Assembly (NCBI RefSeq): GCF_008630935.1
Contig: NZ_CP043908.1
Coordinates: forward strand, 558,001 to 622,000
Direction: 5' to 3'
Length of the DNA: 64,000 bases
Origin: Thermodesulfobacterium sp. TA1
Lineage (GTDB): Bacteria > Desulfobacterota > Thermodesulfobacteria > Thermodesulfobacteriales > Thermodesulfobacteriaceae
In this document: piece after piece, positions 1-6,049 of the stretch
How the letters are laid out: the number at the start of each line of letters is the position of its first letter
Numbering within the stretch: the first letter of the stretch is position 1
Made by a program: the position numbers and the translations under genes
The notes under the pieces: generated by a model
Databases searched by the model: none
The model's input: only the letters and a program-made list of their open reading frames with translations
What the model was told of the DNA's origin: nothing

Positions 1-622
1 CATAAAAGTTTATTTCTTTCCTACCAATTAATTCGTTATAAGTGTTCAATAAATTATTATTATTCTGCATAATGTTTAAAATCTCTTGTTGAAGCTCTCC
101 AATATGTTCATAATTTTCTACATAATTTTTTATTTGAAAGTTAAAAAGTTCCAATACTTTTAAACTTTTTAATTTATCTATCATTTCTTTATATTTTTTT
201 TCATTTTGAATCCAATAGTGATGTGGATAAAAAACACAGAGTATTTCTGTAGTTACAGCCTTATATTTTTTATCTTTTAGTTTAAGTACAATTCCCTTAA
301 TTTCACCATCTGAAAGTCTTCTATTTTCTTTTTCTGCTTTATTCACCCTTTCTACTATATTATTCAGCCATTGTACTAATTTGTTATTAAGTTCGTTATT
401 AAGCTTTAAATATTGAGGAGTAGTATAAAGTCTCTTTTTATTAAAAATTTCTTTTATATTTCCTTTTATAAGTTGATTCATTTTAATTTTTTCTAAAATA
501 TCTTTAAAAAATTTTAAATTGCTTTCTCTTTCCTCTAAATATTCTTTGTTTTCATTTAAAAAGCCAGCATAAATGTTTAACAAAGCCTCAAGTCTTGGCT
601 TGTTAATGAGAAACTTATCCAT
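1..622 (-). CDS. partial protein, probable ATPase partner of the McrC-like nuclease (N-terminal 207 residues only)
   Basis: An open frame runs from an ATG at 622, with a strong GGGGGTGAT ribosome-binding site just upstream, off the left edge without a stop. It begins MDKFLINKPRLEALLNIYAG. The visible part is mostly charged and helical. A segment near residues 130-150 (TEILCVFYPHHYWIQNEKKY) resembles the helical module found before the AAA+ domain in McrB-like proteins, but no Walker motif lies within the visible part. It starts 12 bp after the stop of the DUF2357 nuclease, so the two genes are probably co-transcribed. I infer a McrB-type AAA+/GTPase partner; this rests on neighbourhood and a weak resemblance. 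The remainder lies outside the window. Confidence 0.6.
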   Translation of the reverse strand, partial: MDKFLINKPRLEALLNIYAGFLNENKEYLEERESNLKFFKDILEKIKMNQLIKGNIKEIFNKKRLYTTPQYLKLNNELNNKLVQWLNNIVERVNKAEKENRRLSDGEIKGIVLKLKDKKYKAVTTEILCVFYPHHYWIQNEKKYKEMIDKLKSLKVLELFNFQIKNYVENYEHIGELQQEILNIMQNNNNLLNTYNELIGRKEINFY

Positions 623-634
623 CTTATCACCCCC

Positions 635-2326
635 TTATTTACTCTTGTTTTTATCTTTATTTTCTGGCACCATAGCTATGGCACCAATACCCTGTTTATT
701 TAAAATTGATTCTAAATCAAACTTATTTTTTTCTTTAGTATTATTAGCATCATAAAACACATTTTCACTTCCTGGATACAACACTAATGCTAATTCACAT
801 CCCAATGCATCCCTATAAGTGTGCATCTTAAAAAGGTCTTGAATTTTTACCAACTTTTCTAAATCTCCTATTTTAAAGGCTTCTTCTTCAAGTTCGTTAT
901 CTATCTCCTCTTCTCTCACTAAGTCAAACCTAAACTTGGCATCAAAAACAGCTTTTATCTCCCTTTTGTTTTTAATAAGTGTAAAATCAGGGCGCAAATT
1001 AATCGAATAACTTTCTTCTCCTCTTTTAAAAGTTTTGTTATATACAAGTTCATAACTATCTCCTAAATCTGCTTTAATCTCTGATGCAAGTCCACCTTCT
1101 TGAGCTTCAAATATTTGAAATTTAAGCTCTGATAAGTCTTTACCTAAGGCTTTTGCCAATCTTTTGGCAAGCTCAAAAAAGCACCAATACTCATAGAGTT
1201 TATCTATCCTTCTGTTGTCTATAGCATCTTTTAGCTCATTAAACAAGGGTAATCTTGAAATATTCAAAAGTCGATAAATACTCAAACATTCGCGATATCC
1301 GTCTCTTTTCAACAAAACTTGAGAAGAGTAAGGCAAAAAAGTCACATTACCTACATCTCCAAAAAGCGAACCACTCCTAAAATAACGAACATAGTTTTCT
1401 AATTCTTCTAATTTTGATTGACAGGATTTAGCTTTTTCCCAAAAGTTACGCTTTTTAAATTCTTCACACCAATAGAGAATGATGTCCATAAAACTTTTAA
1501 TAAAACGATTTTCTAGATTATCAAGGGTTTCTATAACATGACGCTCAAAAACTCTCTCTGGGAGATATCCCTTTAGCCTATTTGCTAAGAATTTTAAAAT
1601 ACTTCTTGAAGAAACTTTACGCAAATATTCTGGATGATGAAACATCATAATAATAGTGTCTTCATCAACACTTTTTACTTCATTAGGTAATACCCATCTT
1701 TCATGAGTAATTAAGCTTCTATAAGGATTTTGTGAAATTGTTTGTAAGGCTTGAATAATATCGTCTGCTTTTTGGGTTAAAAGATGAAGAACAAAAATAG
1801 GTGATTGAATTTGAGTATGTTCTTCAGTTGGAAATTCAGTTGGTGATCCTAAATAAAATGGAGCTGAAATGATATACTCTATTATTTCGTCAATTAAGTT
1901 TTTTAAAAATTTTGGATAAAAAAGAGGATCTTCTTCATTATTAATTGGGGTTTTACTTGAAATAATCTCTATTGGATCCGTCTTAATTTCTTGACCATTT
2001 TTAAATTTTACTTTTATAAAACTTTTTCCAAGATAATTTCTAAAGGTAAAACTCCAGCAACCTTTAGGTCTTTGTTCAGCATTTTCTTCTCCAAAATAAA
2101 CCTTTTCAATTTCAATTTTTTCTATATCATCTTTTACATATACCCAAATTTCTTTCCATTCTTGAACTATAACATTAGCTATATCAAAATTAAGTTCAGA
2201 ACATTTTTGTTTTACACTTTCATTCGTAATTTCTATATTTTCCCCTTCTAATATTATTTTAAAATCATCTTTTTCCCAACAAATTTTTTTTCGTTTATCG
2301 TTAATGTCTGTGTATTCTTTCCACAT
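635..2326 (-). CDS. McrC-like restriction endonuclease subunit (DUF2357 / PD-(D/E)XK family)
   Basis: This 563-residue protein has the organisation of McrC-like DUF2357 proteins. There is an N-terminal beta-rich part (about 1-130), a long helical middle containing a conserved-looking YEYW segment near 378-381, and a C-terminal PD-(D/E)XK nuclease core. In that core RPD (445-447) followed by DAK (462-464) gives the catalytic Asp...Asp-x-Lys arrangement, and MHTYRDAL (501-508) follows as in relatives. Such proteins cut DNA together with an NTP-driven McrB-like translocase, often in modification-dependent restriction. Here the nuclease gene comes first and the putative ATPase partner second, the reverse of mcrB-mcrC order. 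The start has a GGAGAG ribosome-binding site. Codon content is very AT-rich, consistent with an accessory defence module. The family call is firm; target specificity is unknown. Confidence 0.8.
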   Translation of the reverse strand: MWKEYTDINDKRKKICWEKDDFKIILEGENIEITNESVKQKCSELNFDIANVIVQEWKEIWVYVKDDIEKIEIEKVYFGEENAEQRPKGCWSFTFRNYLGKSFIKVKFKNGQEIKTDPIEIISSKTPINNEEDPLFYPKFLKNLIDEIIEYIISAPFYLGSPTEFPTEEHTQIQSPIFVLHLLTQKADDIIQALQTISQNPYRSLITHERWVLPNEVKSVDEDTIIMMFHHPEYLRKVSSRSILKFLANRLKGYLPERVFERHVIETLDNLENRFIKSFMDIILYWCEEFKKRNFWEKAKSCQSKLEELENYVRYFRSGSLFGDVGNVTFLPYSSQVLLKRDGYRECLSIYRLLNISRLPLFNELKDAIDNRRIDKLYEYWCFFELAKRLAKALGKDLSELKFQIFEAQEGGLASEIKADLGDSYELVYNKTFKRGEESYSINLRPDFTLIKNKREIKAVFDAKFRFDLVREEEIDNELEEEAFKIGDLEKLVKIQDLFKMHTYRDALGCELALVLYPGSENVFYDANNTKEKNKFDLESILNKQGIGAIAMVPENKDKNKSK

Positions 2327-2550
2327 ACTTTGCTCTCCTTTTTATCTCATATCCAAGGCAATCTAATGTAATGTAAGTATTTACCACAATAATCTCTATA
2401 TTTTTCTCTTTTCTATAATTGCACCTATTGGAAGACATTTCCCGTTTTTTTATTTTCCACACGATAACCATATATACATATTAAATCTTTCCTAAAATTC
2501 ACAAGTAACACAACATATTAGTATTTGGATAACTTTCCCCTTTGCTATTT

Positions 2551-2802
2551 TCAAAAACCTGCTATTCTTTCAACTAAATTTGCTATCTTATGGGCTTTTT
2601 CTTGATTTATACCTAAATAGACCACTAAAAAACACTCTACAATCTCATGAATTAGTGTCTTAAGTTTTTCCTTTTTTGGAATTCTGCTATAAACATATAT
2701 TTTCTTATCCCAAGTCCATACCCCTAATTCTTCTTCAAGATTAAAAACTTCTCCTGTTACTTTATCAACAACCGTCTTATCTTCAGTAAAATAAATCTGC
2801 AT
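2551..2802 (-). CDS. small HExxE protein of unknown function (metallopeptidase-like motif)
   Basis: This 83-residue protein has an extended beta-strand N-terminus, a LIHEIVECFLV helix carrying H52-E53-x-x-E56, and a second helix containing AHKIANLVE (70-78). HE-I-V-E followed by a later AHxxA segment is reminiscent of minimal gluzincin-like or ImmA-like folds seen in mobile elements, but the canonical HExxH is not complete, so peptidase activity cannot be assumed. It is the last gene of a four-gene operon, only 5 bp after the cysteine-rich gene. I do not recognise the family with certainty; a metal-binding role is a guess from the motif. Confidence 0.65.
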   Translation of the reverse strand: MQIYFTEDKTVVDKVTGEVFNLEEELGVWTWDKKIYVYSRIPKKEKLKTLIHEIVECFLVVYLGINQEKAHKIANLVERIAGF

Positions 2803-2807
2803 AAAAT

Positions 2808-3011
2808 CTACCTCTCAAGCACGATCCATTTCACATATTTAGTGCAACGGTCCTTGTATTTCACCTCCTTACCATAAAAACTGCCTCTTCTGTTAGAACA
2901 TATGCCCCATTCTTCGCTTTCAACGTAAGAACTTCTGGCTTGCCTCATTGCACCCCAATACTCACAAGTAGCACAATATTTAGAACTGGATGAAGTTTTG
3001 TAGAGCTTCAT
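2808..3011 (-). CDS. small cysteine-motif protein of unknown function
   Basis: This 67-residue protein has C13-x-x-C16 followed by EYWG, then C38 (EWGICSN) and C56 (DRCTKYVKW). This four-cysteine plus Tyr/Trp pattern is typical of short zinc-ribbon-like hypothetical proteins found on plasmids and in accessory regions. Its ATG overlaps the stop codon of the preceding 367-residue gene (4-bp overlap), indicating translational coupling. Zinc binding is an inference from cysteine spacing and no catalytic role is visible. Its fixed place between the large unknown protein and the HExxE protein suggests it is part of the same functional unit. Confidence 0.7.
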   Translation of the reverse strand: MKLYKTSSSSKYCATCEYWGAMRQARSSYVESEEWGICSNRRGSFYGKEVKYKDRCTKYVKWIVLER

Positions 3012-4111
3012 CTTTTACCCCCTTTGCTTGGTTTGGTCTTGGCTCTTATTTGCCTTTTGCTAAGCTCATCCTCTAAAAGTTCAATGAGAAGTTTCTCAAC
3101 CTCGTTTGGTTCAACCCTTTTCTTTACAAATTCATAAGCTTCGTAGGATGCCTTCTCAGCACCATACCTTCCGATTATGTCCAAATAAAAGAGATACATC
3201 ACCCTGCAGTAAGGATTTTTAGGACTTGGATTTTTTAAGCAATAGACGTTGATATTTTCAAGCCACATACTATCATAAATCTTAGCTAACTCTTCGTTAT
3301 CAAAGAGTATTCTATCTGCTATCAAAGAGGCTAAGACGTTTAAAAACTCTATAAGCTCCCTCTTGGAGAAAGTCTCAAGGGTAAGCCCTTTAGTTTTTAA
3401 ATAATCCTTTGCCATCTCTAAGGTTGGTTTAGCATCAGCTTGGTTGGCAAATAATTCTTCGATTGCCTGAATGATGGGGTCAAGGGGATACTCTTCCTCT
3501 TCGCACTCACATTGCGGTAGCTCTACTGTTGGCTCATCCTTACATCTACGCTCAAGATATTCCCAAACAGACATCTTTTCTATTTCTTTATCTTGAACTA
3601 CCTCTTGCTCTTCGGCTGATTTCTGATCTTCATCAATGTTGATAATATCTTTAACTTTAAGTGCTACCATCTCGGTTTCAGGGTCAAGATTCAGTCTCCT
3701 CAGTTCATTTAAAATAAGAATGTAGTTATAATCATAGGGATTGAAATAGTAGTAAAAATCATGCATTAAATGATATGCCGAATCAATATCTTTCAGTTTA
3801 GCAAACATCCTAAGTATTTCTAAAAATTCTCGTTCAAGCTTTTTTCTTTTATCTAAAACAGGTTCAGCTTCAAATCTTTCTAAAATCTCGTTTGCACATT
3901 TAATAAGCTGATTACAAATCTCTCTGTCTATGGCTCTCCTTTCCTTTTTATCAAGTTCTCTGGTATATCTGTAAATATTTACCCCTTTATTTCTTAAAAG
4001 ACTATCTAATCCGGTAAGACATATATAAGGATTCCCTAAAGCAATAGCCTCATCGGTTAGTTCTTTAGCAATCTGTCTTTGGGCTTCAAGGTCAATCTTA
4101 TTCATGCTCAA
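3008..4111 (-). CDS. uncharacterised helical protein, partner of the AAA+ ATPase
   Basis: I do not recognise this 367-residue protein. Secondary structure looks almost entirely alpha-helical. There is no signal peptide or membrane segment. An acidic, cysteine-containing linker near residues 160-205 includes QCECEEEEYPLD. The C-terminus is basic (KTKPSKGGKR). The start overlaps the 3' end of the AAA+ ATPase gene by 14 bp, and its own stop overlaps the next gene by 4 bp, so it is co-translated with both. It could be an adaptor or substrate-recognition subunit for the ATPase; this is inference from gene order only. A tetratricopeptide-like repeat protein is an alternative, but I see no clear repeat period. 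Confidence 0.75.
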   Translation of the reverse strand: MSMNKIDLEAQRQIAKELTDEAIALGNPYICLTGLDSLLRNKGVNIYRYTRELDKKERRAIDREICNQLIKCANEILERFEAEPVLDKRKKLEREFLEILRMFAKLKDIDSAYHLMHDFYYYFNPYDYNYILILNELRRLNLDPETEMVALKVKDIINIDEDQKSAEEQEVVQDKEIEKMSVWEYLERRCKDEPTVELPQCECEEEEYPLDPIIQAIEELFANQADAKPTLEMAKDYLKTKGLTLETFSKRELIEFLNVLASLIADRILFDNEELAKIYDSMWLENINVYCLKNPSPKNPYCRVMYLFYLDIIGRYGAEKASYEAYEFVKKRVEPNEVEKLLIELLEDELSKRQIRAKTKPSKGGKR

Positions 4112-5378
4112 AACCCCCTACAAATCCCAATTTTTCTTCTTGTTTAACCTCAAACTTAAAAGATTTGTGAAGCTTATCTATCAAGGCTAATACTGTGTGA
4201 GGGTCGTATTTGGTTTCGTTATACCGTTGTTTAAGTAAATGTTTAACTAAGGTTACAAGAAAGGCTCCAGTTACTTTAAGGATGGCTAACTTCTTTCTTA
4301 TCTTTTCTTCTTTAAAGACTTCGCTTAAGCGTTCATCTTTTGATTCTCTTAAAACTAGAGAAGGGTAAAAGTCTGGATCAAGTTCTTTAAATTCAATGAT
4401 AAGGTCAAACCTTCCCGGTCTTCTTAAGGCTATATCAACAAGATGTCTATCGTTTGTGGTAGCTATAAGGTAATGATCATCCCTTTTAACAAAGCCATCT
4501 AAAGCCTGAAGAGCACTTGATAATTCTTTTGGGTTAAACAATTTATCCCTCGTTCCAACTAAAAGGTCAATGTCATCTATGCAGAGTAAAACCGGGCTAA
4601 ATATTTCTGCGTATTCAAAGATTATATTTAAAGGTATTTTGCATCCTGCGTCCACCTCAATTACGGTAATTCCATCTGATTCTGATTTTAAACACTCAGC
4701 TATTATAGCCTTTACTGTATCAGTTTTTCCTGTCCCTGGTTCCCCAACAAAAAGGTATCTAAGCCCGTAGTTTTTCCTCTTTACTGCCTCAATGAAATCC
4801 TCAAGATCTGATTTGTCTTTTAAATAAATATCATTAAGAGTAATTGTGGGAGAAGGTAAAACTTTAAATTTTACTCTTTCAATATTTTCTCCAACAAGAG
4901 ATAATCTTAGGAATTTACCATAATATCCTGAATTTCTTATAGCAAGCTTTGTTAATAAATTTGTTAGTTCAATAGAGTACAACTCCTCTGGATCCTCACC
5001 TACAACAAAAATACTATAAAGGTTACCAAACCTATCTGGAATGATGGGAAGTGAAAGGAAATATCTTTTATCGTTATATCTAACGATAGCAAGAAGAGCA
5101 TTTTCAAAGGAAGCATAATTCTCAAGAGGATCAATTCCTACAATAGTAGGAAAAGTAAGGATCCCAGGAGGAATAAAGGAAAAAACATCTTCTACTTTAA
5201 AGGGAAGTTCAGAAGGTGGAGGGACGACTTTATCTCCATTATAGAGCTTGAGAAGATAGGATTTTATCGTCTGAAAGATTTCGTAATCAAGAACTCTGGT
5301 ATAAGCTGAAACACCAAGCTTATTAGTTATTCCCTCTATCTTTTCTTTTAAATTATCTCTCCTTTTTGGTGGAAGCAT
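4098..5378 (-). CDS. AAA+ ATPase of unknown system (Cdc48/FtsH-like ATPase core)
   Basis: This 426-residue protein has an uncharacterised N-terminal region (about 1-200) and one AAA+ core. Visible motifs are Walker A GEPGTGKT (212-219), Walker B LLCIDDID (264-271), a sensor-1 ATTND (306-310) and an arginine-finger segment RRPGRFD (319-325). The RRPGRFD element is typical of classical AAA proteins such as Cdc48, FtsH and proteasomal ATPases, rather than McrB or ORC-like ATPases. No membrane helix or protease domain is present. A strong AAGGAGGT site precedes the ATG. It heads a four-gene operon. Role unknown: a remodelling ATPase working with the three downstream proteins, possibly in a defence or mobile-element module. 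Confidence 0.85.
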   Translation of the reverse strand: MLPPKRRDNLKEKIEGITNKLGVSAYTRVLDYEIFQTIKSYLLKLYNGDKVVPPPSELPFKVEDVFSFIPPGILTFPTIVGIDPLENYASFENALLAIVRYNDKRYFLSLPIIPDRFGNLYSIFVVGEDPEELYSIELTNLLTKLAIRNSGYYGKFLRLSLVGENIERVKFKVLPSPTITLNDIYLKDKSDLEDFIEAVKRKNYGLRYLFVGEPGTGKTDTVKAIIAECLKSESDGITVIEVDAGCKIPLNIIFEYAEIFSPVLLCIDDIDLLVGTRDKLFNPKELSSALQALDGFVKRDDHYLIATTNDRHLVDIALRRPGRFDLIIEFKELDPDFYPSLVLRESKDERLSEVFKEEKIRKKLAILKVTGAFLVTLVKHLLKQRYNETKYDPHTVLALIDKLHKSFKFEVKQEEKLGFVGGFEHE

Positions 5379-5506
5379 AGGTTACCTCCTTATTTAGAAG
5401 GGTTATTTTAAGGATAATGGTAATTAAAGTAAAAAGAATAAGTATTAGCCGAGAAAAAAGAATAAAACTTAATTTAAGTGGGGAGAAAATCCCTTTTCTT
5501 CGATCC

Positions 5507-5531
5507 CTGGATTTTCCATTGTTAAATCCAG
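5507..5531 (-). other. hairpin in the leader of the AAA operon
   Basis: The 8-bp arms CTGGATTT (5507-5514) and AAATCCAG (5524-5531) are perfectly complementary around a 9-nt loop. No T-run follows, so it is not an intrinsic terminator. It sits inside a roughly 170-nt untranslated leader between the predicted promoter (5559-5586) and the ATPase start codon (5378). It may be a regulatory or RNA-stability element; function is unknown. Confidence 0.4.
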
Positions 5532-5558
5532 AATGTGTTTGATATTTGATTAATTTAA

Positions 5559-5586
5559 TGTATAGATAAAACAATAATTTTGTCAA
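5559..5586 (-). promoter_or_regulatory. sigma-70-type promoter of the AAA operon
   Basis: Reading the minus strand there is a consensus -35 TTGACA (5586-5581), a 16-bp spacer and a -10 TATACA (5564-5559). Transcription would begin near 5552 and run through the long AT-rich leader into the ATPase gene. No other consensus promoter is evident closer to the gene. Confidence 0.6.
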
Positions 5587-5652
5587 GTTCAAAAATAAAG
5601 AAATTTCTAATAATTTAAAGAAAATTTCGCTAAATCTTAGGATTATTTTAAC

Positions 5653-6049
5653 ATAGTGTCCCTTTTATTGTGTAAAAATTTTTCCGGGAAAGGCATGGTA
5701 GTTCCCCAATTCAATTTCATTAAACCCTCTTAACTTCCTTGAGTTTAACCTCTCATTCAGTTCTTTCAAGATCAAGTATAATAATCTTTCAGGAAGTAGG
5801 AAGACACGAAAAGTAAATCTCTGGTATAAAAACCGTTTGCCTATTATTTTTGCTTTTCAAGATAGATACTTGTTAAATTCCTGATGAGACAAGTTTAATG
5901 TCTCTTCTAAGGAATGAAAAAGTAAGTTTAGCTTTTGTTGTTTCACGGTAGCTTCCCTTCCTTTTTTAGTAATCTTTACTTGTTCTCTTGAGGAAGCTAC
6001 CAATCCTCCTATCATTTTTCAAGTCTTTACACAATTAATGAGACACTAT
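5653..6049. mobile_element. 397-bp element with 24-bp imperfect terminal inverted repeats (MITE-like or decayed IS)
   Basis: The left end 5653-5676 begins ATAGTGTCCC and the right end 6026-6049 closes with the inverted copy; the two 24-mers match at 21 of 24 positions. Between them there is no intact transposase. A minus-strand frame beginning near the right end (MIGGLVASSREQVKITKKG) breaks after about 50 codons. Another internal inverted repeat (GGTAGCTTCC at 5947-5956, GGAAGCTACC at 5992-6001) lies 35 bp apart. No convincing target-site duplication is visible in the immediate flanks. This is best read as an internally deleted insertion sequence or a MITE mobilised in trans. It lies immediately upstream of the TonB-receptor promoter. 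The whole 5379-6137 gap is explained by the AAA leader, this element and that promoter. Confidence 0.6.

Follow-up and report, generated by a model that had tools for sequence, protein, structure and literature searches.

A conserved AAA ATPase cassette at the front of an McrBC locus in Thermodesulfobacteriaceae: a candidate mobile accessory module of restriction systems

What a compact set of four genes, headed by an AAA ATPase and lying beside restriction genes, might do for its host is the question raised by this locus. It was examined within a 64-kb window (the whole stretch of DNA analysed), corresponding to G000:C1:558001-622000 of the complete, 1.83 Mb source genome. All four genes are encoded on the minus strand: a 426-aa AAA ATPase (4098..5378), a helical partner protein (3008..4111, with a TTG start, or ATG at 4105), a 67-aa four-cysteine (4-Cys) protein (2808..3011) and an 83-aa protein with an HExxE motif (2551..2802). 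The AAA and helical genes overlap by 14 nt (8 nt counted from the helical ATG), the helical and 4-Cys genes overlap by 4 nt, and a gap of 5 nt separates the 4-Cys and HExxE genes. An earlier note on this DNA had described four genes with overlaps or gaps of at most 5 nt, an arrangement confirmed here at these coordinates and conserved in two related genomes, G005 and G014.

The order of the cassette is kept at four loci, namely the window, G005 (twice) and G014, all from Thermodesulfobacteriaceae. The products of all four genes from G014 and both G005 copies show 64-83% identity to those of the window, and dN/dS values of 0.08-0.26 were obtained for every pairwise comparison of all four products. 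Such purifying values, together with the conserved order, indicate that the four genes are under selection and are not chance open reading frames. The two G005 copies lie 44 kb apart; the helical gene of copy a is frameshifted (L021:10325-11432) and that of copy b is intact. The complete cassette is known so far from three genomes of this one family.

Downstream of the cassette, the locus continues with McrC, McrB and a Cas4-like PD-(D/E)xK nuclease, in that order. McrC (635..2326, minus strand) carries a DUF2357 domain and a PDDEXK_7 nuclease domain with an intact PD-(D/E)xK site (RPD...DAK), and it adjoins the McrB GTPase, the combination by which Type IV McrBC systems are recognised. The N-terminal part of McrB (719 aa) occupies 1..622 on the minus strand and the gene runs past the window to G000:556463; it was assigned by PADLOC PDC-M26A and its motif rather than by a Pfam cut-off. 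The motif, VNIDETT, is a GTPase signature of the NxD type, which according to Bell et al. (PMC11090510) marks a major uncharacterised branch of McrB. The suggestion that the cassette lies next to an McrC-like nuclease is therefore correct as to McrC itself, and the cassette is part of the McrBC locus rather than its independent neighbour. Likewise, the four genes of the proposed operon, with their order conserved, form the leading part of a locus that extends on through McrC and McrB and do not stand alone. Of 41 related genomes, 3 had an McrC relative, in each case adjoining a cassette, and the tight spacing of 26-27 bp between the HExxE gene and McrC in G005 and G014 suggests co-transcription. 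The corresponding gap in the window (2301-2550) is 224 bp and holds a 56-aa ORF. In the source genome, the Cas4-like gene (L025:7660-8433), which lies just beyond the window edge, is interrupted by an in-frame stop after about 115 codons; G005 carries intact relatives.

The two G005 copies show how cassette and nuclease relate. They share 95.5% identity over a 3.3-kb stretch that begins about 0.4 kb before the AAA gene and closes with the HExxE gene. The match breaks off there: copy a runs on into McrC and McrB, and in copy b a NucS-like protein follows (PADLOC PDC-S11, Pfam NucS_C). Past the exchanged nucleases the copies correspond again, in a Cas4-like gene (DNA identity 79%) and in the sequence after it (96%). 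A shared cassette with McrBC exchanged for a NucS-like protein implies that the cassette is the constant unit and the nuclease the changeable one. Between the window and G005, the cassette proteins are about 70-82% identical, McrC 53% and McrB 50%. Around copy a, an ApeA-type HEPN protein follows the Cas4-like gene (L021:16996-18507) and a 2281-aa autotransporter-like repeat protein lies upstream of the module (L021:880-7725).

The reading we prefer, with a rough probability of 0.55, is that the cassette is a mobile, ATP-driven accessory module of antiviral restriction systems that acts on their partner nucleases. A single-ring, Bcs1/YjoB-like AAA ATPase would spend ATP on remodelling, loading or releasing a complex of the partner nuclease; the helical protein would serve as its adaptor, the two small proteins as putative metal binders, and a C-terminal tail of the hydrophobic-Gly-Phe type would be the part through which the ring docks onto its partner. 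The partners would be McrBC and the Cas4-like nuclease here, and NucS-like and other restriction enzymes elsewhere; the module might switch the nuclease on during infection or hold it safe at other times. The association with defence is well supported by genomic context, and it is from context alone that we infer an active antiphage function. Ring formation, the adaptor role, docking, action on a nuclease and the antiviral role are all proposed here as parts of this model. Several observations weigh against it: the confinement of the complete cassette to three genomes, the rarity of its smaller partners beside other AAA genes, AAA relatives in phages or away from recognised defence genes, the poor model of the helical protein, and the disrupted helical gene in G005 and Cas4-like gene in the source genome.

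The small and helical proteins were searched for relatives. The earlier note had called the 367-residue helical protein unrecognised, and clear homology to a known family with a different role would have told against its proposal; no such homology was found, with no match among Pfam families, PHROG families or PDB sequences. Its AF2 model was poor (pLDDT 50), and the structural matches of that model, generic helical proteins with Z of about 9 or less, were not used. The 4-Cys protein has no known relatives outside the cassettes; its residues C13, C16, C38 and C56 are invariant, consistent with binding of Zn or an Fe-S cluster at a probable metal site. Its best PDB match, the TtuA zinc finger, was at chance level (E 0.77) and was rejected. 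The HExxE protein keeps H52, E53, E56, H71 and E78 in the four copies. All four members matched the DtxR metal-binding domain weakly (PF02742, 20-23 bits), below the cut-off of 27 for membership, and the residues match the spacing H-x3-E-x14-H of the DtxR ancillary site. Matches to phage metalloprotease-like families also fell below threshold (phrog_87 metallo-protease, E 0.031, in 2 of 4), and tblastn of the protein against phage sequences gave no match; matches to AcrB and poxvirus A26 profiles were judged to be chance. The protein could be a mini-zincin or hold a DtxR-like metal site.

An invariant HExxE motif bears on the best-surviving rival, which we regard as rather improbable: that the cassette makes up a whole defence system by itself, with its own sensor and toxic effector (for instance, the HExxE protein as a protease fed by the AAA), merely co-travelling with McrBC and other systems in defence islands. 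Conservation of the motif in four copies, the weak PHROG metallo-protease matches and the siting of the same cassette beside different nucleases would all fit such a system. However, no effector domain is recognisable in the cassette, and the McrC relatives occur only together with it, at a spacing suggestive of one transcript.

The sequence and predicted structure of the AAA protein were compared with those of known AAA families. The classical AAA core motifs reported earlier are all present (Walker A GEPGTGKT, Walker B CIDDID and RRPGRFD), and the core is nearest in sequence to Cdc48/VCP and PAN-type AAA proteins. However, a single AAA domain (residues about 190-405) was found in place of the two tandem domains of Cdc48/p97. 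The label Cdc48-type thus holds for the sequence of the core, and the whole protein is predicted to be nearer to the single-ring Bcs1/YjoB type. With an AF2 model of pLDDT 78, the best 9 PDB matches from Foldseek were all Bcs1, over nearly the whole length, and VIA-align placed Bacillus subtilis YjoB first (Z 18.0, 334 residues, rmsd 7.4). The YjoB score is only about 1 Z unit above those of other AAA proteins, which typically align over about 229 residues, so that its lead rests more on aligned length than on Z. From the model, an N-domain followed by a single AAA domain, as in Bcs1/YjoB, appears to be the closest architecture. No match to Pfam BCS1_N was obtained at E up to 1, and the protein was therefore not filed as a Bcs1 member. 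Its N-terminal 25 residues, at the end that bears the membrane anchor in Bcs1, are, by eye, charged.

The second Asp of the Walker B motif, Asp269, occupies the usual position of the catalytic Glu and is invariant in 17 relatives. This substitution, which recalls the EDVD of Bcs1 and NSF-D2, suggests that hydrolysis is slow or regulated. The last 18 residues are predicted to be disordered, and a hydrophobic-Gly-Phe motif near the C-terminus was found in 15 of 17 AAA proteins, whose sources span several phyla and include a large phage, compared with 1.1 expected from shuffled tails; it also occurs in 11 of 30 looser phage relatives. Proteasome activators carry docking tails, and by analogy a docking tail is the natural inference here.

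Bcs1 acts on the Rieske Fe-S protein, and the Bcs1-like predicted architecture beside a 4-Cys protein in the same operon could be taken to mean that the AAA and its partners form a chaperone for protein or metal-cluster assembly, acting on the 4-Cys protein and having no direct part in defence. We consider this improbable: no Rieske protein is recognised in the operon, the distribution is patchy, and the genes are consistently sited by restriction genes and, in other phyla, by WYL regulators.

That siting was followed across the wider relatives of the AAA protein. Among a 395-genome sample of the phylum, the AAA clade is present in 4 genomes and the helical protein in 3. One more genome, G024, encodes the AAA, a helical protein of 25-28% identity and a small helical protein. 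The last of these shares 44% identity with a protein encoded behind the AAA gene of Candidatus Chrysopegis (L041), and the gene that follows there has a match to Lamassu LmuB (E 2.6e-52). At that locus (L041:9953-14442) the AAA and a 64-aa helical protein stand directly before the LmuB-like SMC and a possible nuclease. WYL regulators adjoin AAA relatives at four loci, among them those with DUF262/HEC-05 type genes (L042), a PDC-S26 nuclease (L066) and an NsnA/DUF262-type gene (L069). In an Ignavibacteriae MAG (L064, 2119-17513) a Z1/Mza-like locus stands between two 457-aa relatives, another relative lies beside ORFs that by eye resemble HsdM/HsdS (L065), and Type IIG restriction-modification is among the defence genes near distant relatives. 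No defence neighbour was recognised at L067 or L068, and the relatives at L043 and L092 lie in phages. In our judgement, defence genes are enriched around the AAA relatives. Since most other AAA loci lack the small and helical proteins, the tie between these and the AAA is specific to one lineage. Scans of viral contigs for patterns of the cassette proteins found no relatives, and a looser AAA scan of these contigs returned AAA cores only, at about 23-34% identity. In the least probable reading, a defence island has captured what remains of a gene set of jumbo-phage type, whose BCS1-like AAA served virion assembly. The DD/ED Walker B and GF tail of the phage relatives speak for it, as do the BCS1 orthologues and BCS1-like AAA proteins reported in jumbo phages (PMC7824862); the purifying selection on the cassette, the failure to recognise phage genes around any cassette and the lack of partner-protein relatives in the viral-contig scans speak against it.

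The flanks of the locus bear on how the proposed accessory module may have spread. Remnants of an IS element (window 5652-6048 and G000:554830-555183) bracket an 8.7-kb defence module. Within them, inverted arms of 140 bp from a multi-copy IS (5652..5791, plus strand) match across the two sides at 94%, and a 214-bp direct repeat (5835..6048, plus strand) is 99% identical to G000:554970-555183, the next-best copy elsewhere in the source genome being 81% identical. These brackets and the patchy distribution point to horizontal movement. Five window genes across from the module (TonB receptor, iron-uptake and chelatase-like genes, by eye) gave no PADLOC match except generic ABC-ATPase hits for one gene.

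Upstream of the AAA gene, the promoter-like site TTGACA-18-TACATT (5557..5586, minus strand) agrees with the consensus at 10 of 12 positions. As a single consensus promoter, proposed in the earlier note, its score is no better than chance, with 11 such sites found and 13.8 expected in shuffled sequence; the TTGAC block and the 5' leader are nevertheless common to all four cassette copies. Between this site and the AAA gene, all four copies carry a 17-codon ATG..TAA frame, which had been overlooked in the earlier gene reading of the window. The leader ORF of the window (5469..5519, minus strand; 16 codons) encodes MENPGIEEKGFSPHLN, both G005 copies encode MENPGLEEKGFSPHLS and G014 encodes MENPGHIECGFSPHSV, giving the pattern MENPG....GFSPH... 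Between the window and G014, all codons of GFSPH differ, at third positions only, and the observed peptide identity was reached in 0 of 20,000 random placements of an equal number of substitutions (P below 5e-5). A degenerate pattern of the ORF matched solely these four places in 60 genomes (a control matched none), and the element was found at no other site in the source genome. The substitution pattern and exclusive location indicate that the ORF is very probably translated. The leader RNA gave a fold z-score of -0.5, no Rfam family and weak covariation; since the fold signal is not significant, the ORF explains the conservation of the leader better than RNA structure does.

A role of the leader ORF in leader-peptide control of the cassette, or as a micropeptide subunit, is possible, and under the accessory-module reading it would control cassette expression. 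A bolder and only tentative extension is an unnamed, modular 'activator cassette' with interchangeable effectors (McrBC, NucS-like and others), whose expression the leader peptide would govern, perhaps by itself sensing translation stress induced by infection. AAA rings that handle folded proteins have so far been described in mitochondria, with a suspected part in jumbo-phage assembly; if the accessory-module reading is right, such rings would be linked to the control of bacterial nucleases, and defence effectors would be exchangeable while the ATPase module stays the same. The micropeptide of the leader would offer a regulatory handle that lends itself to direct testing.

How the locus compares with known systems can then be set out. 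Its gene content matches no named system in the libraries and in the portions of the literature that were searched, as the earlier note had supposed; in the accounts consulted, ARMADA/DISARM-like and BREX systems contained no matching cassette. The likeness to Type IV McrBC systems of the NxD branch lies in an adjacent McrC with DUF2357 and an active-type PD-(D/E)xK site and in the NxD motif of McrB, whereas the AAA-helical-Cys-HExxE cassette is not known to accompany McrBC loci in the accounts consulted. CoCoNuT Type III-A systems also add a Cdc48-like AAA (the SpoVK/CDC48-like extension) to an McrBC-type system, but that AAA sits between VWA genes, which are not recognised at the cassette locus; CoCoNuTs are marked by a long coiled-coil McrB fusion, and the McrB here carries the NxD motif; McrC is often missing or inactive in CoCoNuTs and here retains RPD...DAK, a difference that is not decisive. 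IetAS likewise places a single AAA ATPase in a defence setting, yet the match to IetA is limited to the AAA core (E 7e-10; NCBIfam 34.6 bits against a cut-off of 510) and the subtilisin-like serine protease partner of IetAS is not recognised in the cassette operon. The BCS1-like AAA proteins of jumbo phages share the AAA core and the DD/ED Walker B, and some of them also have the hydrophobic-GF tail, but are distant in sequence (about 23-34% identity) and have different neighbours. Bcs1/YjoB differ in that the present protein has no BCS1_N match, an identity of about 16%, a conserved GF tail and a defence context; nevertheless, they provide the top structural matches and share the predicted N-domain with a single AAA domain and, in the case of Bcs1, an Asp at the position of the catalytic Glu.
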